DNA from: a virus
Reading direction: 5' to 3' (one strand)
IMG/VR virus record: IMGVR_UViG_3300008459_000167
Location: 1-35,268 of that record
Length of the DNA: 35,268 bases
The notes beneath the pieces were generated by a model. It worked only from the letters and a program-made list of their open reading frames with translations. It did no database searches and was not told the origin of the DNA. How positions within the stretch are numbered: position 1 is the first letter of the stretch; each line of letters begins with the position of its first letter. Positions 11,068-31,210 of this stretch are shown piece by piece. The position numbers were made by a program, and so were the translations under genes.

Positions 11068-13212
11068 CTAGCCGTTGAATCGACCGACTGCTTCTCGTTC
11101 TCGTTCGTTGATTTCAACGTCCCAATATCCTCTCCAACCAGCACCAAGCATGTTGCCTGGGAGGTCGACTGATTCGACGGTTGGTCGTTTCATGCCACGC
11201 AAGTAGGTGATCGAGTAAGGGCTGAATCGTTGTGACGAAGGCCACAGCATCCAGGTGTTCTCACTGACGAACGTGCTTGCAGCACCGTTGTTGAGCAAGC
11301 TGGTGTTACCCATCTGTGGGAAGGTAACTTGATCGAGCTTGCCAGTCCAGAAGTTCTTATCACCGGTCTTGACACCGTTGGCAGCACCGGTTTCCTGGAC
11401 GATTCGGTTCTGGTTGAGGATTTCCCAAGCAGTTTCTTCGGTCGATAAGGAGGTGATAAGAGTCCAACGGTCGTTGATGACGTTGACGTAGTTCTTACCA
11501 CGGTTCTCGTTGTACCGACGAAGGGCATTGTAAGCCGTTGACAAGTTGGCTCGGTTGAGTGCAAAGGTGGTTCGGCTGTTGTCACCGTCAACCCAGAAGG
11601 TTCCGGCAGCAGCAGCAGTAACAAGCATCAATCGTCCCAACTTCATGTCTGGGACAATCATTGCACCTTCAACCATAGCAGCCAACATGTCGGAGATAAC
11701 TCCCATGTCGTCGTTGTAAATCTGCTCACGGTTGATGACGAGCATCTGGCCGATAGTGTCCAGCTTGCTTCGGTATTCCGTTTCTGGGCCGAACTCGGTC
11801 ATTTCGAGCTTACCGTCACGGTTGACCGAATCCCAAATCTTTCCTCCACCTGGACGAATTCGTTGGGTGACTCGGAAGTCCTTGTTGGACTCTTCCTTGA
11901 GGTATCGGGTTGCAAACGGTGGGTTGATCGCCCATCGTTCTTCCATCATCATTTCGGTCGTTTTCTTCAACAAATTCGGCATGTCGACTTGACTGTACGA
12001 CGAGTTGTTGAACGTCAAACGACTTGTGTTCTTGATCGAATCACAGATGATTTCGATGTCACTGTGACCAGTGAATCGACGACCGGTTTCATTGGAGTTG
12101 GCAACATTGACCAACGTCTCGATGAAACTCCAGTGTGGAGACTTGTCTGCGTTCTCGACAGTTTTCTTGTCAAGACCAGCCTTCTCCAACGTTTCTGGGC
12201 GGACACCGCAAGCCAAGGCAAAGTGTGCCAAGATATGCTGTTCGTTGCCTTGACGTTGGTTGTTGTTGACGTTTGGAACTTTTGGAAGGTTGTTGTTGAA
12301 CATGTCGAGTTTGACACGGTTCTCGATGTTCTCGAAAGACTCGCCAGCTTCGTATCCAGCTTCGATCAATTGCTGATGATTTGGGTAGCTGTTCAGCAAA
12401 CGGTTCAACTTGATGAAGTCAGTTCGAGAAACCGAGTTCTGAACTGGTGCTGGAGGAATCGCTGGTGCTGGAGCAGGTGCTGGTGTTGGAGCAGGGGCTG
12501 GATCAGAGTTCTTGATCGGAGCCGGAGCTGGTGCTGGTGTTGGGTCAGCAGCAGGTGGAACAACAGGGGGTTGAACAGGTGGTGCTGAGTTTTTCAGCAT
12601 AGTGATTGCTTCCTTGTTTAAGAGACCGAAACTGGTGTTGGAGTCACGACCACTCATTGTGATCGTCATTTCTTTGAGGATGGATCGTTCAGCTACATAC
12701 ATTGGGCCTGTAACTTCACGGTTGTTGATGACACGTTTCTCTCCCTTTTGCAGGAAGGTAACGTCATCTTTGTTAGTGATTCGAAGCCCCATGCTGGCTT
12801 CAAAAGGAAACCCATTTTGCAAAGCTTCGACAACAGTGTTTGTCCGTTCAGAAGGGAAAGATGGAATCCCTTCACCGGACAAGTTGGTATCGGTCTTGCT
12901 GATGGAAGTTGAATGTCCGATCGGTTCCCAGTGTTCGTATAGAATCGGAATACTGTTTTTGTATTCGATTCCAGACAAACTGTAGATCATCGGATATTCG
13001 ATTCCGTAATCACGAAGATTAACGGGTTGTCCTGAATATCCAGCAAATGACAACTTAGGCTTGCTGCCATTTTCTCCTGGGGAGGAGGTAGCTGGAGTAG
13101 CAAGATTGAAAACAGCTTCACCAGGCAAAGGTGCTAAGTTTGCTGGTGGTTCACTGTTGTTGATCTTGCTGTGTGCAGCTTTAATGGCTGCAAGTCTTTG
13201 ACTCAGTTTCAT
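11068..13212 (-). CDS. Prohead protease - major capsid protein fusion
   Basis: This is a 714-residue protein. Residues about 60-200 look like an HK97-type (U35/S78) prohead protease. A His region reads LYEHWEPIGH and the serine region reads PFEASMGL, the expected spacing and context for the catalytic His and Ser. Residues about 210-265 form a long Pro-Ala linker (PAPAPAP repeats) that may act as scaffold. The C-terminal 450 residues have the size and composition of an HK97-fold capsid protein (for example LMLVTAAAAGTFW, LLNNGAASTFVSENTW). It follows the portal gene. Self-cleavage is expected to release the mature shell protein. Fusions of this type are known in phages but less common than separate genes. 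Confidence 0.82.
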   Translation of the reverse strand: MKLSQRLAAIKAAHSKINNSEPPANLAPLPGEAVFNLATPATSSPGENGSKPKLSFAGYSGQPVNLRDYGIEYPMIYSLSGIEYKNSIPILYEHWEPIGHSTSISKTDTNLSGEGIPSFPSERTNTVVEALQNGFPFEASMGLRITNKDDVTFLQKGEKRVINNREVTGPMYVAERSILKEMTITMSGRDSNTSFGLLNKEAITMLKNSAPPVQPPVVPPAADPTPAPAPAPIKNSDPAPAPTPAPAPAPAIPPAPVQNSVSRTDFIKLNRLLNSYPNHQQLIEAGYEAGESFENIENRVKLDMFNNNLPKVPNVNNNQRQGNEQHILAHFALACGVRPETLEKAGLDKKTVENADKSPHWSFIETLVNVANSNETGRRFTGHSDIEIICDSIKNTSRLTFNNSSYSQVDMPNLLKKTTEMMMEERWAINPPFATRYLKEESNKDFRVTQRIRPGGGKIWDSVNRDGKLEMTEFGPETEYRSKLDTIGQMLVINREQIYNDDMGVISDMLAAMVEGAMIVPDMKLGRLMLVTAAAAGTFWVDGDNSRTTFALNRANLSTAYNALRRYNENRGKNYVNVINDRWTLITSLSTEETAWEILNQNRIVQETGAANGVKTGDKNFWTGKLDQVTFPQMGNTSLLNNGAASTFVSENTWMLWPSSQRFSPYSITYLRGMKRPTVESVDLPGNMLGAGWRGYWDVEINEREREAVGRFNG

Positions 13213-13217
13213 CGGAG

Positions 13218-14645
13218 TTATTCTTCCTCATTGCCTGTGTCGTTTGCTGGTACTTCTGTATCATCTTCGGTTTTTTCCTCTTCGGTTTCTTCCGACTGAA
13301 TGATACCAGAAGCTGCCGAGGTTCGACCTAACAAAAGAATCTTGCACATGTCACTGTACTCAATTCCGAGAAGGTCTGCTTCTCGTTGAATCTCTCGCCG
13401 TGGGTTACGTCCACGTTCTGTATAATACCTTACGAGAGTCAATGCACCAGTTTGAAGATCAGTAGCGGTGCTGTTACTAATCTTCTGGGGGTCGGGATGG
13501 TTGAACACTTGGGAGTAGCTTAACGTGTAGGTAAGCCCTTCCTCTTCAATAAACCTGAGAGTTCTTCTGCTGAAGTATTTATCAGTTAGTTTTCCGGCTT
13601 CGTACCAAAGCCGAACCATCTGATGAATTACTGGAGCAAAATCTTCTCGGTCGATATGGATTGTGTTCTTCCACGGTCCGAAGTCTACCTGGGAGGAAGC
13701 CATGTTGTATTTTCTGCTGTTGCCAGTAGCCAAGTTAATTGGCATATTGATACAACGAGCAGCAGCACCAACCATAGCATCGAGAGCTTCTGCATCGTCA
13801 GCCGACGTACCAGAGTACGACAAGCCTTCAAGCACAGCTCCTGGGGGTAGTGTGGGAATCATTCCAGGTTCATATTCCCACTTGCCTGTCGGCATCCCTT
13901 CTGCTTCTTCCTTACCCCAAACTGTGGGGTCTAGTTTGATCGCCATAGGAATTGCTGAACGAAATTCAGCACTACGAATGAGCGAGTCTAGGTATCGTTT
14001 GACACTAGGGAAGATGCAGAGTGCTGGGGAACACTCAGGGATACCACAAATTTGATCTTCAAACTTGTTCTTCCACCAAAGAATGATGTCTTTGGTTAAA
14101 TATCTTTCACCCGTATCGAGAAATATCTCGATTGGTTCCCAGTTTTCGTTGTATCGGATTCCGTCCCAAATACGATCTTCGGCTCCAGCACCCATAGGGT
14201 TTTGTAGCTTCTCGGCTGTGACTACTCGAAGTCCTAGCTTGATTTCGTGGTTGGTGTTTTCTTTGTAGTACGGGATACCGATACCGATACCGGTTCTTGC
14301 AGCAGATCGTCGAAGTAGCCGAATGGAGGAACCTAGTCCAGTTTCTTGACAGAACTGAACCCAACGATCTTCGATGTTAGTATTAACATCTGGATCACTG
14401 GCTCCACCGATAAGTAGTGGAGAAGGGCCAACACAATCGTTAGCAAGAGTATTAAGGATGCCGTGGTAGTGGCTACCTTCTTCGTCTTGCTCCATCGAAA
14501 CAACCATCAGCTTTCGACGAACCCAAGGGTGTCGAATAGCTTTGAGGAATCGTTCTTTTGGAAGTTGATTGTACTGTCCGGGGTCTTTCTTGGACAACCG
14601 GACACTGTTTTTGATCCAATTAAGGACAGCATCTAATCGTCGCAT
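13218..14645 (-). CDS. Portal protein
   Basis: This is a 475-residue protein starting at ATG 14645 inside the end of the upstream gene. The size and the N-terminal pattern fit lambda-type (HK97-like) portals, which form the dodecameric DNA gate at the capsid vertex. Supporting segments are a Trp- and Arg-rich start, then ILNTLANDCVGPSP and RLLRRSAARTGIGIG. The acidic C-terminal tail (EETEEEKTEDDTEV) is also common. Its position just before the capsid gene supports this. The large terminase is not adjacent but about 9 kb upstream. Confidence 0.85.
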   Translation of the reverse strand: MRRLDAVLNWIKNSVRLSKKDPGQYNQLPKERFLKAIRHPWVRRKLMVVSMEQDEEGSHYHGILNTLANDCVGPSPLLIGGASDPDVNTNIEDRWVQFCQETGLGSSIRLLRRSAARTGIGIGIPYYKENTNHEIKLGLRVVTAEKLQNPMGAGAEDRIWDGIRYNENWEPIEIFLDTGERYLTKDIILWWKNKFEDQICGIPECSPALCIFPSVKRYLDSLIRSAEFRSAIPMAIKLDPTVWGKEEAEGMPTGKWEYEPGMIPTLPPGAVLEGLSYSGTSADDAEALDAMVGAAARCINMPINLATGNSRKYNMASSQVDFGPWKNTIHIDREDFAPVIHQMVRLWYEAGKLTDKYFSRRTLRFIEEEGLTYTLSYSQVFNHPDPQKISNSTATDLQTGALTLVRYYTERGRNPRREIQREADLLGIEYSDMCKILLLGRTSAASGIIQSEETEEEKTEDDTEVPANDTGNEEE

Positions 14646-14854
14646 GATCGGTTGAGTTCCTTACAGGGACAGTCGTTTTTGGGAACTGCTTTTGTGAATC
14701 CAAAGTTAGCCAGGAATGGCTTTTTTGTTCCACGTGAGTTTGCTGCTTTCAGCAAGTCAATCAGATCGAACTGCTCCACCTCTTCCTGGGGAGTCTTGAT
14801 TCGTTTAGGTCCGATTGCTTGCTGGATAGCTTGCAAGTTTTCTTCAAGTGACAT
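14633..14854 (-). CDS. Small head-region protein of unknown function
   Basis: This is a 73-residue protein that overlaps the portal start by 13 bases. It is helical at the N-terminus (LEENLQAIQQAI) and ends in a small Cys cluster (DCPCKELNRSC), which could bind zinc. Siphoviruses often encode a short head-tail joining (gpW-like) protein just before the portal, but I see no clear gpW signature, so that role is a guess. Confidence 0.55.
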   Translation of the reverse strand: MSLEENLQAIQQAIGPKRIKTPQEEVEQFDLIDLLKAANSRGTKKPFLANFGFTKAVPKNDCPCKELNRSCDD

Positions 14855-20291: not shown

Positions 20292-20359
20292 AAGACTTGG
20301 AAGGACTCGAACCATCCACCTCCGCCTTACGGGGCGCTCTACCTCTGAGCTACAAGTCT
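20292..20359 (-). tRNA. tRNA-like gene with shortened anticodon region
   Basis: The acceptor stem is perfect (AGACTTG with CAAGTCT, 7 bp). The D arm is canonical (GCTC, AGAGGTA, GAGC) and the T loop is TTCGAGT on a 5-bp stem with one T-T mismatch. CCA is not encoded. Only 19 bases separate the D stem from the T stem, where 22-23 are normal, and no 5-bp stem with a 7-base loop can be drawn. The best fold is a stem with a 5-base TAAGG loop and a bulged A. It may be a degenerate or non-decoding tRNA. Isotype undetermined. Confidence 0.6.
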
Positions 20360-20365
20360 TGTGGT

Positions 20366-20686
20366 TTACAGTTTGACGTACTGGAGTTTTCCAGTTACGT
20401 CAGGAGTTACAGCATCACTGGTACAACCCAATGCCCATCCGTGTGGCACAAGCACTTCCCTGGGGGAGATACTTGTTGTTCCGGTGATGTTCGTTGTGTT
20501 GAATCGGTGGACTGCGATCATGTTGTTGGTAGCACCGATAGGGTTGTCTGCATTGTACAACCGAATGGTGTGGGTTCCTGTACCCAGGTTGTTGCCTGAG
20601 ACAATGTAGCTCCCACCTTCGAGTGGGCCTGTGGTAGCCGATAGCACGTTTTGTGCTGGAGAGATTGGAATGTCTCCGTGAATCAT
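20366..20686 (-). CDS. Small beta-rich protein of unknown function
   Basis: This is a 106-residue protein starting at ATG 20686, overlapping the protease stop. It is rich in Thr, Gly, Asn and Ile, without charge clusters (SATTGPLEGGSYIVSGNN). It looks like one Ig-like or cement-type beta domain. The gene lies directly after the subtilisin-like protease and could be its partner, a substrate or a virion decoration protein. These are suggestions from position only. Confidence 0.55.
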   Translation of the reverse strand: MIHGDIPISPAQNVLSATTGPLEGGSYIVSGNNLGTGTHTIRLYNADNPIGATNNMIAVHRFNTTNITGTTSISPREVLVPHGWALGCTSDAVTPDVTGKLQYVKL

Positions 20687-21612
20687 ACATACTCCAGTTG
20701 GTCATTGAGGAGAGCATTGATGATCTCCGAGGTCTTTGGAACTCCAAATCCCCAGGCAGGGTCGAAACCAGGTTCTCCCTTGTCTTGGGTGTACAGTTTG
20801 AGAAATTCTCGGACAGCTTCTACTCCATTGAAAGCTGGATACCCTTCTCGTCTCATCAGTTCGATGATGAGGGCAAACAGTCCAGCAGCAAAAGGTGTTG
20901 CCATGCTAGTACCGGACATACCTACATAGCCATTCGAAGTAGAACAAGAAATGATGTCTTGCCCTGGGCAACACATATCCATTTCCCGGCCCCCAGAAGA
21001 GAAAGAGGCTCGCTGTCCATTTTCTTGGTAAGCACCAATACACAAAGACTCTGGGTACTTGGCTGGGTATCCGATTGTGTTGTACTTCCCTGTGAAGCCG
21101 GAGTTACCAGCAGCAGAGACAACAACACAACCTTTCTGCCAAGCATACCGTAGAGCATCTTGCATTGGTTGGTACGGGGAAGATGATCCAAGTGACATAC
21201 TAATGACGTCAGCACCAGCATCAACAGCCCATCGGATTCCCTGGGAGATTGCTTCTGATGAACCACTTCCTCGATTCGACAAGACTTTGCCAACCAGTAG
21301 AGAAGCAGCAGGAGCCACTCCTATACCCTCTCTCCCTAGGATCGTCCCTGCACAATGGGTTCCGTGCCCATTGCCGTCTCTCCAGCTCTCACCCTGGATA
21401 AACGAACGCCCCTCTACTGGAGTTGGCAAAACATCGTGTGGATTTAGTCCGGTGTCGAGTACAGCAACTTTGATGTTGTTGCCGGATACTCTTTTCCAGA
21501 TCGGATTGAATGTGTCAGGTGGTAAATGCCAGAGATTTCCCGGAGTTGCATAAGTGATTATGTCCGAGGTTAAATCTGGTGGGAGGTGTACAGGTGGGCC
21601 AGATTGGGTCAT
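20683..21612 (-). CDS. Subtilisin-like serine protease (S8 family)
   Basis: This is a 309-residue protein with the full subtilase triad: Asp53 in VLDTG, His83 in NGHGTHCAG and Ser236 in GTSMATP. It also has the oxyanion Asn170 in SAAGN. There is no signal peptide and only about 45 residues precede the catalytic domain, so it lacks the usual pro-domain. It is the first gene behind the predicted late promoter. The ATG at 21612 follows the terminator U tract by six bases and has no Shine-Dalgarno sequence. Roles could be cleavage of host or virion proteins inside the cell. A prohead protease is already fused to the capsid protein, so this enzyme probably does something else. Confidence 0.92.
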   Translation of the reverse strand: MTQSGPPVHLPPDLTSDIITYATPGNLWHLPPDTFNPIWKRVSGNNIKVAVLDTGLNPHDVLPTPVEGRSFIQGESWRDGNGHGTHCAGTILGREGIGVAPAASLLVGKVLSNRGSGSSEAISQGIRWAVDAGADVISMSLGSSSPYQPMQDALRYAWQKGCVVVSAAGNSGFTGKYNTIGYPAKYPESLCIGAYQENGQRASFSSGGREMDMCCPGQDIISCSTSNGYVGMSGTSMATPFAAGLFALIIELMRREGYPAFNGVEAVREFLKLYTQDKGEPGFDPAWGFGVPKTSEIINALLNDQLEYV

Positions 21613-21668
21613 GATACGAAAAAAGGTTGGAGTCCAGTGGATTACCGGAAACCAACCTTAGTATCATG
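21610..21668 (-). promoter_or_regulatory. Leader RNA switch candidate covering the protease start codon
   Basis: In the leader transcript, CAUGAUAC (21668-21661) is perfectly complementary to GUAUCAUG (21617-21610), which contains the protease AUG. Between them lies the terminator stem. The two stems together make 16 bp separated by a 1x5 internal loop. The upstream leader can instead form GUAUCA-UGAUAC (21677-21661), which uses the same bases and would free the start codon. The two folds are mutually exclusive, as in attenuators and riboswitches. Confidence 0.6.
21619..21659 (-). terminator. Intrinsic terminator in the late leader
   Basis: An 8-bp stem (AAGGTTGG with CCAACCTT, 21659-21652 and 21630-21623 on the minus strand) has a 21-base loop. 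The stem runs into a U tract of six (21624-21619). It lies about 35-75 bases downstream of the predicted start site and directly before the protease ATG, so most transcripts may end here unless antiterminated. Confidence 0.72.
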
Positions 21669-21677
21669 CTGTGATAC
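21661..21677 (-). promoter_or_regulatory. Leader hairpin, alternative to start-codon pairing
   Basis: GTATCA, TGCTG, TGATAC: a 6-bp perfect stem with a five-base loop. Its formation excludes pairing of the same bases with the protease start region. Confidence 0.5.
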
Positions 21678-21686
21678 TTAACCGTG

Positions 21687-21719
21687 GCGGTTCCCGGTAT
21701 ATTATACGCCGGAAACCGC
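21687..21719 (-). promoter_or_regulatory. Operator-like inverted repeat over the promoter
   Basis: GCGGTTCCCGG (21687-21697) and CCGGAAACCGC (21709-21719) form an 11-bp inverted repeat with one mismatch. It is centred on 21703, over the -10 box and half of the spacer. A further half-site ACCGGAAACC lies at 21644-21653 in the leader. A dimeric repressor or activator is the natural reading. The XRE-type protein encoded at 23006-23356 is a candidate. Confidence 0.65.
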
Positions 21720-21729
21720 TAAAAGTCAA
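21701..21729 (-). promoter_or_regulatory. Sigma-70-type promoter driving the late genes
   Basis: The minus strand has TTGACT (21729-21724), exactly 17 bases, then TATAAT (21706-21701). An A/T-rich stretch lies upstream, as in UP elements. Transcription would start near 21694 and run leftward into the protease and all morphogenesis genes. This is the best promoter match I found in the window. Confidence 0.82.
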
Positions 21730-21755: not shown

Positions 21756-21772
21756 TTATCATGGGGTGATAA
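21756..21772 (-). terminator. Hairpin ending the nuclease transcript
   Basis: TTATCA and TGATAA pair around a five-base loop immediately after the nuclease stop at 21773. A/T-rich sequence follows. It would separate upstream transcription from the late promoter. Confidence 0.5.
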
Positions 21773-22246
21773 CTATCGTGTGACGATCCATTCATTTATT
21801 GGGTAGCCCGCATCAGATGCTCGATTACCAAATTGAAGTACAATCCAGTCTAGCTCTTCTTTTGTCCACGGAGTTTTGGCTGTTTGACCAGAGAATAGTT
21901 TTGCCATTTTCTTGTCAAGAAGGTAGGATGTCAGCGATTCTTGGGACGACATACCATTTTTGTAGACAACTTGGCGGAAAATTTGACCGACAAATCTTCC
22001 ATCAAATTTGTCTTTTGTCAGGTACTGTATACGAAGATTCTGAGGTTTCTCTTCAATCCATTGTTTGACAAAAGACATTACTATCTTTCCGGCTTCCGTG
22101 TTTTTCTCTGGGGTGTCGATCCCGTAGATTCGTAGATGTTTTTGCACAAACATTCCTGGGAAGGGTTCGGTAGGTAGTATACAGTCGAGGGTATCTCCAT
22201 CAATTACGGACAAAGCAAACGGTGTATAAAATGATGGTACGGTCAT
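21773..22246 (-). CDS. Staphylococcal-nuclease-like endonuclease
   Basis: This is a 157-residue protein with the thermonuclease core. VIDGDTL provides the calcium ligand Asp18. LRIYGIDTPE supplies Arg39, Asp44, Thr45 and Glu47, matching SNase Arg35, Asp40, Thr41 and Glu43. FDGRFVG supplies Arg84, matching SNase Arg87. All catalytic positions are kept. It lacks a signal peptide, so it acts in the cytoplasm, perhaps on host nucleic acid or during DNA processing. ATG 22246 overlaps the stop of the upstream gene. A hairpin follows its stop. Confidence 0.87.
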   Translation of the reverse strand: MTVPSFYTPFALSVIDGDTLDCILPTEPFPGMFVQKHLRIYGIDTPEKNTEAGKIVMSFVKQWIEEKPQNLRIQYLTKDKFDGRFVGQIFRQVVYKNGMSSQESLTSYLLDKKMAKLFSGQTAKTPWTKEELDWIVLQFGNRASDAGYPINEWIVTR

Positions 22247-30742: not shown

Positions 30743-30828
30743 AGTAATGGTGCTCGCTTTCTTCCCTGGAGGTATCCTATCAGGTAGATAGCTACGTGTG
30801 TTGCTAAGAGTGCGGCTATTTCGTACAT
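30739..30828 (-). CDS. Possible 29-aa membrane peptide
   Basis: ATG 30828 lies inside the end of the CsrA-like gene, and TGA 30739 overlaps the GTG start of the next gene. The peptide begins MYEIAALLATHVAIYLIGYL and ends in basic residues (QGRKRAPLL), a small membrane-helix pattern. It may serve only to couple translation of its neighbours. AGAAAGAAG before the start is a weak ribosome binding site. Confidence 0.35.
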   Translation of the reverse strand: MYEIAALLATHVAIYLIGYLQGRKRAPLL

Positions 30829-31100
30829 GGTTCTTCTTTCTGGAGTTTTTCTCCTCGAATGAGTTTGATTTCCTTGGGTACTGTGAGTCCCAAGCGGGCT
30901 TTGTTTTGTCCGTGGATGGAATGGAAACTGATGAGAATGTCACCAATTTCGATGTAGGTTCTTTGTGCAAGACCTGCTTTAAGAGTGACGGTTGGTGATT
31001 TGAAGCTGATCAAAACAGTATTGAAAACTATGTTCTCTACTGTAAGAACGGCTTCACCGATATGGACAGACTGCCCAACTTTACGGTTGTAAATAATCAT
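30816..31100 (-). CDS. csrA-like: CsrA-like RNA-binding protein, apparent fused tandem dimer
   Basis: This is a 94-residue protein against about 61 for CsrA. The N-terminus MIIYNRKVGQSVHIG aligns with CsrA strand 1 and the start of strand 2. The C-terminus KARLGLTVPKEIKLIRGEKL aligns with strands 4-5 and the start of the helix. In between, a second IEIGDILISFHSIHG segment repeats the strand 2-3 pattern, as if two CsrA units were joined. CsrA dimers build each RNA site from strand 1 of one chain and strand 5 of the other. This fusion would keep one such site. CsrA binds GGA motifs in mRNA and controls translation or decay. ATG 31100 has a weak GAAAG site. Confidence 0.75.
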   Translation of the reverse strand: MIIYNRKVGQSVHIGEAVLTVENIVFNTVLISFKSPTVTLKAGLAQRTYIEIGDILISFHSIHGQNKARLGLTVPKEIKLIRGEKLQKEEPCTK

Positions 31101-31142
31101 GGGTCTTTCTTTCTGAAAGAGTGAGAGAAACAAATAAACAAA

Positions 31143-31210
31143 AAGACCGGACAGGAATCGAACCTGCATCTAGGAATGACTTCCTCGCTCTACCGTTAAG
31201 CTACCGATCT
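31143..31210 (-). tRNA. tRNA-like gene with four-base anticodon-position loop
   Basis: The acceptor stem is complete (AGATCGG with CCGGTCT, one G-T pair). The D arm is canonical (GCTT, AACGGTA, GAGC), the T stem is GCAGG-CCTGT and the T loop is TTCGATT. CCA is not encoded. In place of an anticodon arm there is a 5-bp stem AGGAA-TTCCT with a four-base loop GTCA. Only 19 bases lie between D and T stems, as in the tRNA-like gene at 20292. It could not present a normal anticodon. It may be a degenerate or regulatory tRNA. Confidence 0.6.

Follow-up and report, generated by a model that had tools for sequence, protein, structure and literature searches.

A probable two-layer control module of the late operon in an uncultured phage family, with paired operators and a possible origin-dependent terminator

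In the protection of IS10 and IS50, read-through RNA folds on itself, RNA from the own promoter is without one arm of the fold, and the effect is exerted on translation of the transposase. In gal, lac and lambda CI looping, pairs of dyad operators flank a promoter at helically phased spacing. In the genes e (lysozyme), soc, 49 and I-TevI of phage T4 the 5' arm of an inhibitory hairpin encloses the late promoter (PMC3014915, PMC2988022). Tn916 carries terminator T1 together with the cis-acting antiterminator RNA canT (PMC11658703).

Here we describe the region ahead of the subtilase gene in IMG/VR virus record IMGVR_UViG_3300008459_000167, of which positions 1 to 35,268 were analysed (the window). 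The region is probably the control module of the late (structural) operon of the phage, built in two layers, and a repressible late promoter followed by an origin-dependent terminator is the model which, judged from sequence, we favour. It would resemble the T4 gene e type in that RNA from upstream promoters holds the 5' arm of an inhibitory structure and RNA from the late promoter escapes it, which times a late gene; the T4 hairpin, however, hides a ribosome-binding site and thus acts on translation, whereas transcription termination is predicted here, and the window type has a third strand, A2, that couples an antiterminator. With Tn916 it would share a terminator that insulates from read-through and an RNA that acts in cis to allow passage of the element's own transcription, but canT is processive and reaches distant terminators, whereas the present antiterminator pairs directly with the arm of one terminator. 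From both T4 and Tn916 the present case differs in its one local terminator with a three-way choice of partners. The likeness to IS10 and IS50 lies in the self-folding of read-through RNA and in the arm missing from own-promoter RNA, the difference in their action on translation. As in classical attenuators and riboswitch platforms, two exclusive helices share one strand, the 5' arm of a terminator, but the proposed input here is the RNA's point of origin. The literature covered was open-access, so that the absence of a closer precedent in it is weak evidence.

The intergenic region is 160 bp long, on the minus strand, between an endonuclease-like gene (5') and the subtilase gene (3'). The features, in window positions, are:

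21773 to 22246, minus strand: endonuclease-like gene (phrog_452 endonuclease, E 4.6e-12), a possible source of read-through transcription
21756 to 21772: P1, putative upstream operator palindrome TTATCACCCCATGATAA, directly past the stop codon of the nuclease gene
21701 to 21729, minus strand: predicted late promoter TTGACT-17-TATAAT, sigma70-like, with 11 of 12 consensus matches, kept in relatives
21709 to 21719, minus strand: arm A, GCGGTTTCCGG, in the -35/-10 spacer, complementary to A'
21687 to 21697, minus strand: A', CCGGGAACCGC, putative antiterminator strand at the 5' end of the promoter-born transcript, assigned from its duplex with A2 and from covariation
21661 to 21677: P2, putative downstream operator palindrome GTATCACAGCATGATAC
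21645 to 21654, minus strand: A2, TGGTTTCCGG, common to the antiterminator and the 5' arm of the terminator
21619 to 21659, minus strand: predicted intrinsic terminator AAGGTTGG-TTTCCGGTAATCCACTGGACT-CCAACCTTTTTT, a GC stem with U6, assigned from sequence and fold
21610 to 21617, minus strand: GTATCATG, complementary to the P2 right arm and overlapping the start codon of the protease gene
20683 to 21612, minus strand: subtilase (Peptidase_S8), 309 aa, first gene of the late block (PF00082, E 2.3e-48), with its ATG at 21612-21610
13218 to 14645: portal, in the late block
11068 to 13212: capsid, in the late block

Portal and capsid were assigned from profile hits to PF05136 and PF25209 downstream of the subtilase gene. 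This gene opens the structural block, with portal, capsid and cement further downstream. All 35 conserved ORFs of the window lie on the minus strand, and as all genes of these phages are on one strand, the late genes lie downstream of everything made early. Transcription would start at about 21694, and arm A is carried only by RNA from upstream. The 111-nt leader folds at -38.3 kcal/mol against a shuffle mean of -24.8 kcal/mol (z -3.7, better than 200 of 200 shuffles), with most of the excess coming from the terminator stem. In the Rfam scan of the window two tRNAs were the only hits, at 20292-20359 and 31143-31210 (minus strand), and the leader matches no curated RNA family, riboswitches included; neither a ligand nor a leader peptide or regulator site emerged. 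ARAGORN detected only the tRNA-like gene at 31143-31210, with an anticodon that could not be assigned.

The search for the subtilase gene and its surroundings gave 30 viral loci, in many of which the gene stands in another context. A recognisable version of the promoter region is present in 12 distinct sequences, window included, which are of four kinds: the window and L097, its nearest relative; L098 and L121; L105-L108; and L109, L113, L116 and L117. A downstream terminator lies at the same place in L097, L098, L121 and L105-L108, besides the window, and for A'/A2 these eight leaders represent few independent lineages, about three, a point against the model; L109, L113, L116 and L117 are without it. 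Because the hypothesis came from the sequence of the window, only the relatives count as a test. A search for further relatives based on the terminase delivered no new late promoters, and bacterial genomes searched in the same way gave distant terminases only, some of them from Planctomycetota or Lentisphaerota, a weak hint at the host.

P1 starts 42-44 bp upstream of the -35 element in the window and the nine relatives in which both palindromes are clear, and P2 starts 52 or 53 bp beyond the start of the -35 in 11 of 12 leaders (57 bp in L117). The centres of P1 and P2 are 94-96 bp apart in the same ten sequences, despite diverged DNA between them; this spacing of about 95 bp corresponds to about nine helical turns. 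At one mismatch or fewer the relative genomes hold 4-10 sites each, against 0-2 for a reversed control pattern: 9-10 in the four near-complete relatives, 4 in G003, and 4 in G010, a fragment to which that count applies. The sites lie at the late promoter, in a four-site intergenic array by the structural block, at an early-gene pair and at the early promoter. By position all but two of the 48 sites fall within these four control regions; the two exceptions are centred at 46411 in G001 and at 14740 in G004. The window, itself a fragment, contains just the late pair. The TATC/GATA core hardly varies among the 52 sites compared, and changes at the edges mostly break the pairing, with no compensation. 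Fixed half-sites together with changes that break pairing argue for a DNA site bound by protein rather than an RNA stem, and the sequence comparison thus gives good support to P1 and P2 as DNA operators bracketing the late promoter. As in phage repressor operator sets, several near-identical dyad sites stand in the control regions of one genome, and the half-site sequence is conserved rather than the base pairing. Since P1 and P2 belong to a genome-wide set of control-region sites, a dimeric regulator presumably keeps the late promoter repressed until late and may do so by bridging the two. Two dyad operators with helical phasing around a promoter are also the arrangement of gal, lac and lambda CI, but the motif here is TTAGTATCA-N5-TGATACTAA, in a phage family without a DNA match in the phage collection searched. 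A pattern scan for paired palindromes gave 56 hits, which, this family aside, appear to be unrelated repeats.

P2 also lies in the leader, and might act there as an RNA site for processive antitermination on the adjacent terminator, in the manner of boxB/nut or put. The hairpin is of boxB size, stands at a fixed distance from the start and adjoins the terminator, and early leaders carry the palindrome too. Yet the arms of P2 are fixed and its centre varies, the opposite of boxB as it is known; P1 lies upstream of the promoter; the changes seen in the palindrome break its pairing; and the P2 hairpin is weak (-0.4 to -4.6 kcal/mol). Neither the conserved loop nor the compensated stem of lambda boxB and HK022 put was found in the palindrome, and we regard such a role as very improbable.

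A different role for the leader was proposed in the sequence-only reading, in which the P2 hairpin, GTATCA-N5-TGATAC, alternates with a helix that hides the protease AUG, as in a thermosensor, riboswitch or translation attenuator. The complementarities themselves are there: GTATCA (21677-21672) and TGATAC (21666-21661) occur on the minus strand, CATGATAC (21668-21661) is the complement of GTATCATG (21617-21610), which holds the protease ATG, and the terminator AAGGTTGG..CCAACCTTTTTT lies between the two. For the window, L097 and L098 folding predicts an 8-bp AUG helix (p 0.001-0.006), and pairing between the flank and the AUG side beats shuffles in these and in L121 (p 0.001-0.006), so that it is more than chance there. 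Against this switch, the seven distinct leaders give no covariation in the AUG helix, and 321 of 500 shuffles score as well; the gene is kept in L105-L109 with the pairing weak or gone, an outcome that this reading had itself named as its refutation; in L121 the pairing has moved off the AUG, ahead of which there is a GTATCA copy (GTATCAAAAATG); and the palindrome, with arms that are conserved as sequence and also occur outside the leader upstream of promoters, behaves as a DNA operator. Conservation of the helix in relatives, which a thermosensor sequestering the start codon would show, is thus lacking. The missing Shine-Dalgarno sequence had been taken as a sign of a special trigger, but an SD-like core is present in only 90 of 208 conserved family genes. 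The triplet found most often ahead of family starts is ATC (23 of 208 genes, with a background of 2.8% over all ATGs), and with ATC-ATG this common neither GTATCATG nor the missing SD needs a special trigger; the helix owes something to the usual start of the family. To judge from sequence, its role would at most be an accessory one in the four window-like leaders, and we consider the proposed switch highly unlikely.

That the leader has mutually exclusive folds is nevertheless borne out in general, with other helices than those named: the real pair appears to be the terminator and an antiterminator formed by the RNA 5' end, which covaries. This pairing, the sigma70-like promoter and the second palindrome copy at 21772-21756 had been left out of that reading. 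In the antiterminator A' (21697-21688), the RNA 5' end, pairs with A2 (21654-21645), the terminator's 5' arm, at -21.4 kcal/mol in the window (p 0.002 against shuffles). Each of the eight leaders that carry a downstream terminator shows the complementarity (p 0.001-0.041), and the sequences involved differ by lineage (CCGGGAACCG/UGGUUUCCGG, AGCGGAUCGG/CCGAUCUGCU and AGCGAAUCGG/CCGAUUUGCU). In an alignment for which the two strands were cut and joined by hand, 93% of the cells are paired, six of ten pairs have changed on both sides, and the covariation score was reached by none of 500 shuffles; with the partner slid by 1-3 columns the covariation falls to near zero. Between L106 and L108 a change in A2 is matched in A' (G-C to A-U) and, by eye, in the 3' arm of the terminator, as expected if the A2 strand serves two helices. 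The leader thus has an intrinsic terminator upstream of a gene and a competing antiterminator helix with covariation, as in a transcription attenuator, and the modelling predicts read-through as the default of promoter-born RNA.

For the folds, RNA polymerase was placed at the end of the U-tract with 10 nt hidden. Under this set-up promoter-born RNA retains A'/A2 in 8 of 8 leaders. The pair count alone does not lie above that of shuffled A' (p 0.08-0.33), and only duplex energy and covariation lift A'/A2 above the shuffles. Counting against the model, in full-length promoter-born RNA the terminator is the more stable fold by some 4-14 kcal/mol, and escape of this RNA would therefore depend on kinetics. 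In L107 and L108 a second long hairpin, made from a copied P2 right arm, is inserted between P2 and the terminator.

The second partner of A' is arm A. In the window the A/A' duplex amounts to -22.0 kcal/mol (p 0.002 against shuffles), and p values below 0.05 were also obtained in L108, L109, L116 and L117, and not in L097 or L107. When read-through RNA of the window, L098, L105, L106 and L108 is folded in the same way, A' is hidden and the terminator formed; in L121 this happens in part. This capture of A' beats shuffled upstream sequence in six of the eight leaders (p 0.007-0.026); it is absent in L097 and L107, where the arm is weak or lost, which counts against the model. The four leaders without a downstream terminator have 13-16 bp hairpins around the promoter (-16 to -22 kcal/mol, p 0.002-0.004), enclosing the -10 in L109 and L117 or the -35 in L113 and L116, and followed by U-runs of 3-6, with only three in L116. 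Such hairpins cannot form in RNA born at the promoter. Inhibition that needs upstream RNA, the trait of the T4 gene e type, is thus predicted in the six leaders with A' capture and the four with promoter-wrapped hairpins, L097 and L107 being the exceptions, so that 10 of 12 sequences should stop incoming transcription and spare their own.

The A/A' dyad could instead be a second protein-binding DNA site and no RNA device, as its centre lies close to the -10, a position at which a regulator could bind. Its arm sequences are, however, wholly different between lineages with self-complementarity kept, and the U-run after the dyad in L109 and L117 makes a terminator; we rate a DNA site as improbable. 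Somewhat more weight, though still on the unlikely side, is due to an arrangement in which P1 and P2 serve as repressor sites, the terminator is plain or a partial attenuator giving a short RNA, and A/A' and A'/A2 have no function. The operator evidence is the strongest of all, full-length RNA favours the terminator, and arm A is lost in L107 and L097, all in line with this; in conflict with it, A'/A2 is present in all eight terminator-bearing leaders and covaries across lineages of unlike sequence, including the exchange of G-C for A-U between L106 and L108.

In the favoured model of a repressible promoter and an origin-dependent terminator, the first layer (the P1/P2 operators) is well supported and the second (the attenuator) is supported by covariation and by the predicted folds. 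A dimeric regulator at P1 and P2 would hold the late promoter repressed. RNA started at the late promoter would form A'/A2 first and pass the terminator, and RNA from upstream genes would bring arm A, which in most members would pair with A', whereupon the terminator forms and the late genes are shielded from early read-through. That only RNA which began at the late promoter is let into the late operon remains a tentative part of the model: the 5' strand would be captured either by the promoter spacer, in upstream RNA, with termination, or by the 5' arm of the terminator, in promoter-born RNA, with read-through. Just as tentatively, related phages would reach this end via promoter-wrapped hairpins. 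If the model is true, premature late expression would be avoided without a dedicated antitermination protein, a compact element would tell where an RNA began, and this element might be put to use as a natural insulator of promoters. The operator set offers a handle on the regulator of an uncultured phage family.

In the search for the cognate protein no convincing DNA-binding family above the Pfam cut-off was found among the candidates tested. For the first early gene as a repressor, the AlphaFold model (pLDDT 83) is without a match in PDB or BFVD. A protein of 457-466 aa near the four-site array (L075 2096-3469, L077 472-1872 and L081 1142-2515, all minus strand) was considered as a ParB-like regulator; its sole match is phrog_5931, of unknown function. 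A phage-encoded CsrA homologue is present in the window (30816-31169, minus strand; PF02599, E 2.4e-7) and in G001, its closest relative, and was absent from the searches of the other relatives; limited to these two, it cannot account for the whole family and was rejected as the trigger.

The four-site palindrome array (L073 738-1122, L075 5361-5733, L077 3400-3738, L080 2439-2788, L081 4337-4714) is conserved and intergenic, with near-constant spacings of 156/157, 64-66 and then 103-148 bp. In the arrays inspected the last two palindromes flank a TATACT/TATAAT promoter. In five genomes the array is adjoined by a cysteine-rich protein of 163-202 aa (GPGTxL..CxCxxRAxxMDxWG..GC..N; L077 3802-4302, minus strand, and homologues), which has no convincing family match. 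Early leaders (L074, L076, L078, L079) carry GGCGGA or AGCGGA and then the palindrome, followed in L074, L076 and L078 by TCCGCC or CCGCCGCG plus a palindrome of the GTCTCATTTTGAGAC type; in L074 a reversed copy lies additionally upstream of the early promoter. Close homologues of the protease (75-77%) occur in other phages (L004-L009, L016) behind a different gene and an unrelated terminator, which suggests that the protease gene moves as a unit without the late control region.
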